Of a DNA stretch of 64,000 bases, positions 36,319 to 40,720 are shown in pieces. Where the stretch lies: NCBI GenBank assembly GCA_018268395.1, contig JAFDWQ010000010.1:186001-250000 (forward strand), written 5' to 3'. How positions within the stretch are numbered: position 1 is the first letter of the stretch; the number at the start of each line of letters is the position of its first letter. Below the pieces are notes generated by a model that saw only the letters and a program-made list of their open reading frames with translations, was not told where the DNA came from and ran no database searches. This stretch comes from Armatimonadota bacterium. Lineage in GTDB: Bacteria; Armatimonadota; Fimbriimonadia; Fimbriimonadales; Fimbriimonadaceae. The translations under genes were made by a program, and so were the position numbers.

Positions 36319-37865
36319 CGCGCATGCTTGCCTGTCTGACGCTATGGATGGCGATGACGGCGGCCTGGGCCCAGAACGGGCTGACCGTCGACTACACCTA
36401 CCGAGGAGCGTTCTCCGACCAGGGCGCCCGGTACGAGGGTGCCTGCTACGTGACGCCGGCGTTCATGCGCCGTGTCGGGTGGCAGGTCGACGTCACCGAC
36501 GGCGTCGCCTCCGTCAGCGCCGAAGGGCACACCTTTCAATTAGAATCGTCGATCATCGGCGGTAAACGGCTGTACTGCCTGGACGAGGCCGTCCGCTATC
36601 TGGGCGGAACGGTCGAGTGGGACGAAGCCCAGGGCCGGGCGACGGTCCTCGGTCGGCTGCGGAACATCGAGAAGACTCCCGCAGGCCTGAGGGTCGACTG
36701 TACGATGAACGTGAAGCCTCGGGCGTTCCGCGCCTCGGGTCCGCCCCGGATGGTCCTCGACCTTGCGGGTGCGGTCTTGGACGAGAAGGCTCTGGCCCCC
36801 TTACCCTCGGGATGGCGGGCGTCGCAGTTCACGTCGAACACGGTCCGGGTCGTGATCGAGTCCCCGACGATGTCGAACGTGACCGTCCCCGCGCTCTTAG
36901 AAGGGCGTACGGTCGAACTGGCCCTCGCTTCGAACGTCCCCGCCGCACCCAAGACAGCGGCCACCGTCAGCCTTGGCAAGCCCGCTGTCGGGTCGGAAGT
37001 CAACGGCACCCAACCGGTCGTCCTTCCGTGGACCAGTCGACCGTCGCAAAGTCCGACCGCCCTTTACCTTGATCCGACGACGATCCAAGTGACGGTTCCT
37101 GGAAGCGCCGCCGAGAAACCCGGCGAGAACCTGGTCGAACGGAGCCCGTTCATCAGGAGCATCGACGTCGTCGACGACGGAAACGGCACCTGCACCGTCA
37201 CTTTGAACCTCAAGTCAGCGCTTGCGTTCGAACTGAACACGCAGAGTCTGGGGGCTACGGTCTCGCTGTCCCGGCCCAAGTCCCGGGGCGGATTGGCCGG
37301 AAAGATCATCGTCGTCGACGCCGGGCACGGTGGTAAGGACAACGGGGCCGTCCATGCCGGCGTCCAAGAAAAGAACCAGACTCTGGCGATGGCGAAGACG
37401 GTCGCCAAGGCCCTCAAGGAAGCAGGCGCCTCCGTGATCATGACCCGCTCGGACGACACGTTCGTGTCCCTCGGGGAGCGGTCGAACATCGCGAACCGAA
37501 GCAAGGCTGACCTGTTCGTCAGTTGCCATTTCAATTCGAACAGCGTCGACAACAGCCGTAGCGGGACGATCGTGTTCTATCACAATGCGATCCCGTTGCA
37601 CATGTTATTGGCCGAGTGCATCCGGAGCGAGATCGCCAAGTTCAAGGATCTGCCCGATATGGGCACTTGGAGCGATACGCGGATCTACAATTCGGGATTC
37701 GCCGTCTTGAGAGGGGCGCAGATGCCCGCCGTCCTCCTGGAACTTGGGTTCTTGAACCACGCGACCGACCGTTCGAAGATCCAAGACCAGAACTTCCGTG
37801 ACCATGTCGCGGACGCGATCGTGAAGGGTGCTAAGGTGTTTTTCGGTGAAGAGTCCAAGAAGTAG
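36315..37865 (+). CDS. N-acetylmuramoyl-L-alanine amidase (Amidase_3) with AMIN-like region
   Basis: A 516-residue exported cell-wall hydrolase with the signal peptide MTRMLACLTLWMAMTAAWAQ. The N-terminal half contains a copper-amine-oxidase-type domain (about 20-115) and an AMIN-like beta domain. The catalytic C-terminal domain (about 330-510) has the zinc motifs VDAGHGGKDNGA, Glu in VQEKNQTLAM, SCHFNSNS and the catalytic Glu in VLLELGFLNH. It cleaves the bond between MurNAc and the stem peptide. It overlaps mutY by four bases and the GerMN gene by 20 bases. Confidence 0.93.
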   Translation: MTRMLACLTLWMAMTAAWAQNGLTVDYTYRGAFSDQGARYEGACYVTPAFMRRVGWQVDVTDGVASVSAEGHTFQLESSIIGGKRLYCLDEAVRYLGGTVEWDEAQGRATVLGRLRNIEKTPAGLRVDCTMNVKPRAFRASGPPRMVLDLAGAVLDEKALAPLPSGWRASQFTSNTVRVVIESPTMSNVTVPALLEGRTVELALASNVPAAPKTAATVSLGKPAVGSEVNGTQPVVLPWTSRPSQSPTALYLDPTTIQVTVPGSAAEKPGENLVERSPFIRSIDVVDDGNGTCTVTLNLKSALAFELNTQSLGATVSLSRPKSRGGLAGKIIVVDAGHGGKDNGAVHAGVQEKNQTLAMAKTVAKALKEAGASVIMTRSDDTFVSLGERSNIANRSKADLFVSCHFNSNSVDNSRSGTIVFYHNAIPLHMLLAECIRSEIAKFKDLPDMGTWSDTRIYNSGFAVLRGAQMPAVLLELGFLNHATDRSKIQDQNFRDHVADAIVKGAKVFFGEESKK

Positions 37866-38430
37866 CCGCCGCAATCCGGCCCCTCTGATCGTGGGGCTCT
37901 GCTCGATCGCCCTTCTCGGAGGAGTGGGGTATTACGTGGCGACGCTTCCCAAGGAGCTTCCGGCTTCAAAGAAGGCCGTCGTCGACGAACCTTCCCGGCG
38001 CGAAGACGTCAAGGTCTATCGGCCCCGGTATGAGAAGGGCGAACTGAAGCTCGACCCGGGCACGGTCAAACCACCGGAGAAGACCGATCCGAAGGTGTTC
38101 GCGGTCAACTCTTATCTGAAGAACCTCGGTTTCATCCCAAAAGGGGCCGCACTGAAAACGTGCACGGTCAAGGACGGCTTGGCGACGTTGGACTTCAACG
38201 CCGAATTCGAGACGACTTACGGGACAGAAGACGAGCAGACCGTCGTGAAGGGCCTCATGACGACGATGGCCCAGTTCTCGGACGTCCACGCCGTGAAGAT
38301 GACGGTCGAGGGCAAGCCCCTCGAGACCCTTGGCAACATCGACCTCACTCAGCCGCTTCCGGTCCCTGTTCCGGAGAAGTCCGGCGGCGGGCCAGAAGGC
38401 GTGCCGCCTCCTGATGGCACTTCACGATGA
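37846..38430 (+). CDS. GerMN-domain membrane-anchored protein
   Basis: A 194-residue protein with an N-terminal anchor (PLIVGLCSIALLGGVGYYVA), a charged linker and a GerMN domain (about 80-175: FAVNSYLKNLGFIPKGAALKT, ATLDFNAEFETTYGTEDEQTVVKGLMTTMAQF). GerMN domains occur in spore-germination GerM and in many non-sporulating bacteria beside cell-wall amidases, and they probably bind the wall or partner proteins. The start is the GTG at 37846, with an AAGG about eight bases before it, so the gene overlaps the amidase by 20 bases. The 3' end overlaps the convergent PAP2 gene by 86 bp. Confidence 0.88.
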   Translation: MKSPRSSRRNPAPLIVGLCSIALLGGVGYYVATLPKELPASKKAVVDEPSRREDVKVYRPRYEKGELKLDPGTVKPPEKTDPKVFAVNSYLKNLGFIPKGAALKTCTVKDGLATLDFNAEFETTYGTEDEQTVVKGLMTTMAQFSDVHAVKMTVEGKPLETLGNIDLTQPLPVPVPEKSGGGPEGVPPPDGTSR

Positions 38431-38929
38431 TCGTGCCGCACACCGCGCCGCACAGCCATCCGAGCACCACTTCGCTCGGCCAGTGGACGCCCACGTAGAT
38501 CCGGGACAGACCGGTCAGGACGGCGACGCCGCACCAAAGGGCTCCCATCGGCCGGTGAAGCCAGAGGAACACGGTCGCGACGGCCATCATGTTCGCGGAA
38601 TGGGCCGAAGCCGTCCCGAAACTCGTCAACGGTTCCACCCGTACCTGGATCCATGGGTTCGCGGCCATGACGTCCGGCCAACTGGGACGGTTCCACTGGA
38701 AGGCGTCCTTCAGTACGTCCGTCGTCAGGTTGGCCAGAGGCCATGCCAAGAGGGCGAGGACCGTTCCCAGTCGGGTCGGTTTCCAGACGAGGGACAAGAC
38801 CACCAGGGATCCGATCAGGACGAGGCCGCCTGTGGTCTTGGTCGCATTGGACAAGAACACCCAGAAAGGCGCCGTGCTTTCGGGCCAGCCGTTCACGGCC
38901 CGGAAGACAGCCGTGTCCAGCGAGTTCAC
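38345..38929 (-). CDS. PAP2-family membrane phosphatase, second copy
   Basis: A 194-residue multi-pass membrane protein. The PAP2 motifs are present with changes: DAFQWNRPSWP (K..RP-type), TASAHSANM in place of PSGH, and LSRIYVGVHWPSEV (SRx5HxxxE, Glu instead of Asp). The usual phosphatase His residues are kept. The start is the GTG at 38929, chosen because a TACGAT -10 element lies six bases upstream; an in-frame ATG at 39007 would lie inside the divergent gene. Its last 86 bp overlap the end of the GerMN gene. The likely role is dephosphorylation of lipid carriers or phospholipids. Confidence 0.87.
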   Translation of the reverse strand: MNSLDTAVFRAVNGWPESTAPFWVFLSNATKTTGGLVLIGSLVVLSLVWKPTRLGTVLALLAWPLANLTTDVLKDAFQWNRPSWPDVMAANPWIQVRVEPLTSFGTASAHSANMMAVATVFLWLHRPMGALWCGVAVLTGLSRIYVGVHWPSEVVLGWLCGAVCGTIIVKCHQEAARLLARRRTSPEQGPEAAE

Positions 38930-38953
38930 GGCAAGATCGTACCCAGGTAAAAA
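38925..38953 (+). promoter_or_regulatory. Promoter of the ADP-ribosylglycohydrolase-like gene
   Basis: TTCACG (38925-38930), a 17-bp spacer and TAAAAA (38948-38953), ending six bases before the GTG at 38960. The -35 box overlaps the start codon of the divergent PAP2 gene. Confidence 0.55.
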
Positions 38954-38964
38954 CCGAACGTGAA
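38936..38964 (-). promoter_or_regulatory. Promoter of the second PAP2 gene
   Basis: On the minus strand: TTCACG (38964-38959), a 17-bp spacer and TACGAT (38941-38936), ending six bases before the GTG at 38929. The -35 box overlaps the start codon of the divergent gene, mirroring the opposite promoter. Confidence 0.6.
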
Positions 38965-40720
38965 CGACCGGGTCAAGCATGCCGTATGGGCGTCCGTCGC
39001 CGGGCACACCCTTGGGGCCGTTCGGGCCGGTACGCGAGGGTTCAAGCGGTTGGCTTTCTATGAGCCTGGACCGCTTCGGATGCCGCCGTGCCCGGCCTTC
39101 GACGCTTGGCTGGCGTTCGACCGTTTCCTCGGCACGGGCGAGGGTCCTGAAGACCTTTGGCGCGACGTTTCTGAACGATGGACGACAGTGACGCCGGCTT
39201 CGGCCGTAGCCAGGGCCAACCTGTCACGCGGCGTGCCTGTCCCGATGACCGGCTGCCGCGGCAATCCTTTCGCGGAGGACGCTGGGGCCCTCGGTCGTGC
39301 GGTCTTCTGGGGGCTGGCGTTCCAGGGCCGTTCCGAGGCCGCCGCAGACTGGGCGTTATGGGACGCGTCGTTCGATCACTCCGGCGAAGGCGTTTGGACG
39401 GCTGTTGCGTCTGCCGCCGCGGTGGCCTCGGCCGTGGAAGGCGCCGCCCTCAGCGACGTGCTTCGAGCGGCGACCGCAGCACTGGACCGACGTTCCAAGG
39501 GGGCCGGACTCGTGTCCGCCGTCCTTCAATCGATGGGGGAATCCGACCCGCTTCCGACATTGAAGGCCCGCTGGGACGGAGAGCTCGGAGAACCGGCTTC
39601 GGGCAAGGCCTTGTCGGCGTTCGGAGCTGCGGTCGCGGGGGTCGCCCTCGCCAAAGACACGGCGTCGGCCGTCACAGGTGCCGCTGGATTCGGGGGGGCC
39701 GCAGATCAGGCCGGACTCTTGGCCGGCGCCCTAGGTTCCCTCCTTTACGGTCCGATCGCCCCCGAGTGGACCGCACCGCTCGGGGACTCCTACGTTTGCA
39801 GCTACGGCCTCAAAGACGTCGTCGTCCCGGAAACCCTCACCCGGTTCGCGGAGCGGATCGCAGAGTGCGGCGAGAGAGCGGACGGCGCCCTGGCTTGGAG
39901 GCCCTCCGAGGACGCTGAGGCAGCCGTCTGTTCCCGAGGCGTTCGTATCGAGGCGCGCTTTCCGAACGGGATGATCGAGAGAGGATCCGAGGGCTGGCAG
40001 GTGGCACTCACGTTGGTCAATGGGACGGACACCCCGGAGACGCTGGACTGCCAAGTGGTCGCACCGGTCGGTGCGGAAACGGCGACCCGACTGGGTCAAG
40101 AGTCTCTCGAACCTGGCGGCCGTGTCACGAAAGGGCTGATCGTCCGCAGGACCGACGTTTCCGCAGACAGCCCGTTGACCGTCCACGCCGGACCGGCGAC
40201 GTTGCGCCTGCCTGTTCTCGCCCCCGAGAGCTGGTTCGTCGCGGGACCGTTCGAGAACGAGAGCCAAGACGCCTACGAAGCGACGCTGCCTGCAGAGAGG
40301 AGGCAGATCCGGTCGGACCGGTTCAACGGCAGGAGCGGTCTGCCGGCTCAATGGACCGAATGGTTGCAGGAGGGGCGGGTGTACGACGTCGAACCCCTTT
40401 TTCAGTTCGGGCCAGGGGCCGTCGTCCTCTACGGTCGGTTCCGACTGCCTTCCGAGGGGCCGATCGACATGGTCGCGGCGGGTGCCCCGGGCGTTTCGGT
40501 GACCGTCGACGGGCAACGGGCGGTCCGTTACAACGACTACCACGTTCCGGAGCCTGAAAGAAGGCCGCCTTACGTCTTCCGTTGGACCCCTGGCGACGAG
40601 ACGACATTGGTCGTCAAGCTGGTCCGGGACCGGCGGCCGGCCCATCCATTCGTCCTCCTGTTCACGGACGGTGACGGCCGGGTCGTCGAACCTGTGGACT
40701 GGTCGCCCATGGATCCATGA
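38960..40720 (+). CDS. ADP-ribosylglycohydrolase-family protein with beta-sandwich C-terminus
   Basis: A 586-residue protein. The N-terminal helical half (1-320) resembles ADP-ribosyl-glycohydrolases (VWASVAGHTLGAVRAGTRGF, NPFAEDAGALGRAVFWGLAF, DQAGLLAGALGSLLYG), which use Asp/Glu residues and two Mg ions to remove ADP-ribose. The expected GDALG and acidic metal motifs are not clear here, so activity is uncertain. The C-terminal half (about 340-586) is beta-rich with a jelly-roll flavour. The start is the GTG at 38960. Its stop overlaps the next small gene in an ATGA. Confidence 0.72.
   Translation: MNDRVKHAVWASVAGHTLGAVRAGTRGFKRLAFYEPGPLRMPPCPAFDAWLAFDRFLGTGEGPEDLWRDVSERWTTVTPASAVARANLSRGVPVPMTGCRGNPFAEDAGALGRAVFWGLAFQGRSEAAADWALWDASFDHSGEGVWTAVASAAAVASAVEGAALSDVLRAATAALDRRSKGAGLVSAVLQSMGESDPLPTLKARWDGELGEPASGKALSAFGAAVAGVALAKDTASAVTGAAGFGGAADQAGLLAGALGSLLYGPIAPEWTAPLGDSYVCSYGLKDVVVPETLTRFAERIAECGERADGALAWRPSEDAEAAVCSRGVRIEARFPNGMIERGSEGWQVALTLVNGTDTPETLDCQVVAPVGAETATRLGQESLEPGGRVTKGLIVRRTDVSADSPLTVHAGPATLRLPVLAPESWFVAGPFENESQDAYEATLPAERRQIRSDRFNGRSGLPAQWTEWLQEGRVYDVEPLFQFGPGAVVLYGRFRLPSEGPIDMVAAGAPGVSVTVDGQRAVRYNDYHVPEPERRPPYVFRWTPGDETTLVVKLVRDRRPAHPFVLLFTDGDGRVVEPVDWSPMDP

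Follow-up and report, generated by a model that had tools for sequence, protein, structure and literature searches.

Leaderless genes have been described in Deinococcus-Thermus and in Actinobacteria, where a TANNNT element lies about 6-7 nt before the start codon and neither a Shine-Dalgarno sequence nor a -35 signal is seen (PMC12340547, PMC3160421), and leaderless promoters consisting of a -10 box only have been established by experiment in Deinococcus (PMC12340547). In bacterial bidirectional promoters, two divergent starts lie on overlapping promoter DNA and polymerase binds one way at a time; as described in PMC12825309 and in the account of Warman et al. 2021 cited in PMC10268837, their -10 boxes share bases and their starts are 7-25 bp apart. 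Overlapping back-to-back divergent promoters in general are distinct promoters, one per strand, whose polymerase footprints overlap.

The window analysed here, a stretch of 64,000 nucleotides from the genome (G000) of an uncultured Armatimonadota bacterium in or near the Fimbriimonadaceae, holds a block that resembles each of these arrangements in part. A PAP2-superfamily gene (38345-38929, minus strand; PF01569, E 2.1e-18) and an ADP-ribosylglycohydrolase-like (AGH) gene (38960-40720, plus strand; PF03747, E 5.9e-17) have GTG start codons at 38929 and 38960, with 30 bp between them as read directly from the sequence. On the plus strand, 17 nt separate TTCACG (38925-38930) from TAAAAA (38948-38953), and another 6 nt lead to the AGH start; on the minus strand, the same distances of 17 and 6 nt run from TTCACG (38964-38959) to TACGAT (38941-38936) and from there to the PAP2 start. 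Both ORFs open with GTGAAC, and direct reading of the block finds no Shine-Dalgarno sequence before either of them. This mirror geometry had been described in an earlier sequence-only reading of the window, which proved exact to the base in its coordinates, spacings, GTGAAC starts and 30-bp gap.

Compared with the leaderless genes of Deinococcus-Thermus and Actinobacteria, with which it shares the position of the boxes and the lack of a Shine-Dalgarno sequence and of a -35 signal, the block differs in belonging to Armatimonadota, in serving a divergent pair with boxes 6 bp apart and in having an AGH box without the final T. It also departs from the bidirectional promoters: its -10 boxes (38936-38941 and 38948-38953) share no bases, and with 31 bp between its predicted starts the block falls outside the shared -10 class as described in the sources cited above. 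Relative to back-to-back divergent promoters in general, the block is shorter than usual because it would have no leaders, and each promoter would reach into the first codons of the opposite gene.

The start codons are well fixed: when a box begins with TAA or TAG and its end lies 6 nt before the start, these letters form an in-frame stop that closes the reading frame above. This is the case of AGH in the window and of PAP2 in two other members of the genus (G001 and G003). For AGH, the in-frame TAA at 38948-38950, inside the gene's own -10 box, makes 38960 the earliest start open to it, and this start is aligned in relatives. The PAP2 frame upstream of 38929 is open in the window genome; in G001 and G003 an in-frame stop lies just upstream, and PAP2 starts at the same place as in the window.

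Two further features of these genes were observed. The 3' end of PAP2 overlaps that of a convergent Germane-domain gene (37828-38430, plus strand) by 86 bp (38345-38430). ADP-ribosylglycohydrolases carry an Asp-containing motif (GDALG) near the N-terminus, and at the corresponding place the AGH-like proteins of the window (38960-40720) and of relatives (L010-L037) have a GxTLGAP-type sequence; judged by this motif, they may be modified or non-catalytic members that carry an additional C-terminal half.

We consider it likely that two divergent promoters overlap back to back in this block and that PAP2 and the AGH-like gene are transcribed from them into mRNAs with little or no leader. RNA polymerase would read mainly the -10 box and the Gs preceding it (in the style GG-TANNNT) in each direction, and transcription would start at or adjoining each GTG. 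A -35 box would be unnecessary, and each TTCACG hexamer would simply be where the coding sequence of the neighbouring gene begins, placed about 17 bp upstream by nothing more than the 30-bp gap.

Support for this leaderless pair comes from the genome at large and from the PAP2 family. Across 1.26 Mb of the window genome (1.2 Mb of sampled stretches plus the window), 100 in-frame start codons have a TANNNT that ends 6-7 nt upstream, against about 33 expected from control codons, and G precedes the box at -1 in 53% and at -2 in 44% of these sites. In the same sample, start codons show hardly any enrichment of Shine-Dalgarno motifs upstream, and on these counts the Armatimonadota lineage of the window seems to rely little on them. 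Among the PAP2 upstream regions of relatives, 27 of 43 have TANNNT 5-7 nt before the start, and 38 of 43 have [TC]ANNNT at 4-9 nt, mostly after a G (31/38). The recurrence of TANNNT before PAP2, together with the genomic peak at 6-7 nt, is by its position a signature of leaderless transcripts. The PAP2 box of the window, TACGAT at 6 nt, has both features, lying within the 6-7-nt interval and being conserved in the family. TAAAAA, the probable AGH box, also stands at the expected 6 nt and is conserved in the genus, with its last base off consensus. On this combined pattern, both -10 boxes are very probably real.

Conservation among relatives points the same way. The loci closest by PAP2 protein come from Armatimonadota metagenome-assembled genomes, mostly Fimbriimonadaceae, and within the order PAP2 adjoins and diverges from AGH at 23 of the 29 AGH-match loci examined, the window's own included. 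The three genus members with the gene pair (G000, G001 and G003) have an identical 30-bp gap, identical spacings on both sides and an identical core, TACCCAGGTAAAAAC (38940-38954), which contains both divergent GGTA promoter starts. In the alignment of the 30 bp from these three genomes, all 15 columns of the core are invariant, compared with 3 of 15 outside it, a difference for which Fisher's p of about 1e-5 is indicative, the core having been picked after the alignment was seen. Two of the three invariant flanking columns are the AT of the PAP2 -10 box, which differs within the genus at its two middle bases only (TACGAT/TAGCAT), leaving TA and AT unchanged. On the AGH side, GGTAAAAAC is invariant in the three genus members, and a GGTAAA-like element occurs in several other genera. 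The core is present once each in G001 and G003; G002, of the same genus, has PAP2 without an AGH match and lacks the core. Taken over the aligned genomes, the layout of the -10 boxes and the 30-bp gap is beyond chance.

Outside the genus the arrangement varies. The gap ranges from about 18 to 76 bp in the family's other genera, the AGH box lies 10-16 nt from the start or is unclear in several relatives, and several share with the window a box without the last T. At one locus with the same gene pair (L029, in G024), the gap is 23 bp and the boxes TACATT and TACCGT on opposite strands overlap on GTAC; this locus fits the bidirectional promoter, with starts 7-25 bp apart, in the sense given in PMC10268837.

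Other readings of the block were weighed against the leaderless pair, below which we rank the possibility that a regulator controls both genes through the near-palindrome TACC-CA-GGTA (plus AAAAC) as its operator, with promoters in or around it. The symmetry of the element, its unusual conservation, which extends to the bases between the two -10 boxes, and the poor AGH -10 box would all suit an operator, but no second copy of the core within 2 mismatches was found in the window genome, and GG before TA is the common context of the leaderless boxes of this genome. Moreover, in G040 the halves of the core stand 5 bp further apart (TACCCGGCCCGGGTA), as is expected of two promoter halves and not of one operator, and we regard the operator as unlikely.

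The sequence-only reading had itself proposed two full overlapping promoters with both -35 and -10 boxes, each start codon lying within the opposite gene's -35 box, with built-in mutual exclusion, weighed here as an evolved switch. The two promoters stand in that they are back to back, with -10 boxes 6 nt from the starts and overlapping footprints; it is the -35 halves that lack support. The exact mirror geometry with its 17-bp spacing appears to favour the switch, yet the 17-bp distances on both sides are fixed by the 6-nt spacings and the single 30-bp gap, which makes the mirror image automatic, and the identical hexamers reflect the C-GTG-AA with which both genes begin. By this reasoning the two hexamers are one coincidence, neither independent nor beyond chance. 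Each matches TTGACA at 4 of 6 positions, for which the chance is about 2.5% per fixed place at this base composition, and a promoter scan at the usual sigma-70 cut-offs reported no promoter at the block.

Nor does a -35 signal emerge elsewhere. The combination TTCACG-16/18-TANNNT occurs at 17 sites in the whole genome versus 22 for the reversed control, and is therefore no genomic motif. Among the 100 genomic leaderless-type sites, 5% show at least 4 of 6 matches to TTGACA at 16-18 bp, compared with 6.5% of 201 controls, and none of the spacings from 8 to 33 is conspicuous. Chance matches should make up about a third of these 100 sites and dilute the comparison, which leaves room for a -35 role that is rare or weak. 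No -35 signal is seen in the 38 PAP2 promoters, where TTCAC at 17 bp is found in the window alone, and on the PAP2 side none resembling it appears in the 35 relatives beyond G000, G001 and G003.

In the alignment with relatives, the two hexamers behave differently. Within the genus, the 30-bp gap and the plus-side TTCAC are kept (TTCACG, TTCACA in G001, and TTCACC), whereas the minus-side hexamer at the AGH start codon varies (TTCACG in the window, TTCATG in G001, CTCACG in G003), and outside the genus the gap varies as well. The plus-strand hexamer spans the PAP2 start codon region, and its TTCAC reads as a coding feature, since PAP2 begins Val-Asn in all three genus members and again in G047 and G024, which have other gaps. 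Among the 234 divergent neighbour pairs sampled, a single further candidate had its two TANNNT boxes within 70 bp. Together these results speak against the hexamers as working -35 boxes and make an evolved switch improbable. A modest plus-side contribution is possible, as TTCAC is kept in the genus (TTCACA in G001 matches at 5 of 6) and, in Deinococcus, a -35 box added at 17 bp strengthens -10-only promoters (PMC12340547). That the 30-bp gap is under selection in the genus, with the first codons of each gene giving a weak -35 contact for the other and coding and promoter constraints interlocked both ways, strikes us as very improbable.

Equally hard to credit is a promoter for PAP2 alone, with TAAAAA no promoter and the AGH-like gene transcribed from elsewhere: the missing last T and the displaced or unclear AGH boxes of several relatives would agree with it, but GGTAAAAAC keeps a fixed distance from the AGH start throughout the genus, and nothing but the opposite-strand PAP2 gene lies upstream of the block.

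If the block is the leaderless pair that we favour, simultaneous occupancy of both promoters would be unlikely because a bound polymerase extends over several tens of bp upstream of +1, and mutual exclusion of polymerases would be a generic expectation for any promoter pair this close. Competition between the two directions would arise only if one or both promoters were strong; at E. coli bidirectional promoters it is confined to cases with one strongly active direction, with little at weak promoters (PMC12825309). Given that TAAAAA lacks the nearly universal last T of the -10 box, AGH may have a promoter that is weak, shifted or dependent on a factor.

On its sequence features, then, the block is most probably an ordinary pair of overlapping divergent promoters in a leaderless version, a compact case of a known arrangement. 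It provides sequence evidence for leaderless, -10-driven gene starts in Armatimonadota; a literature search for leaderless transcripts in Armatimonadetes or Fimbriimonas found no relevant report. For one and the same gene pair, the relatives extend from boxes that are separate to one that is shared (G024), a series that would be useful for studying the onset of polymerase competition, and the block indicates how far two divergent promoters may be compressed when neither mRNA has a leader.
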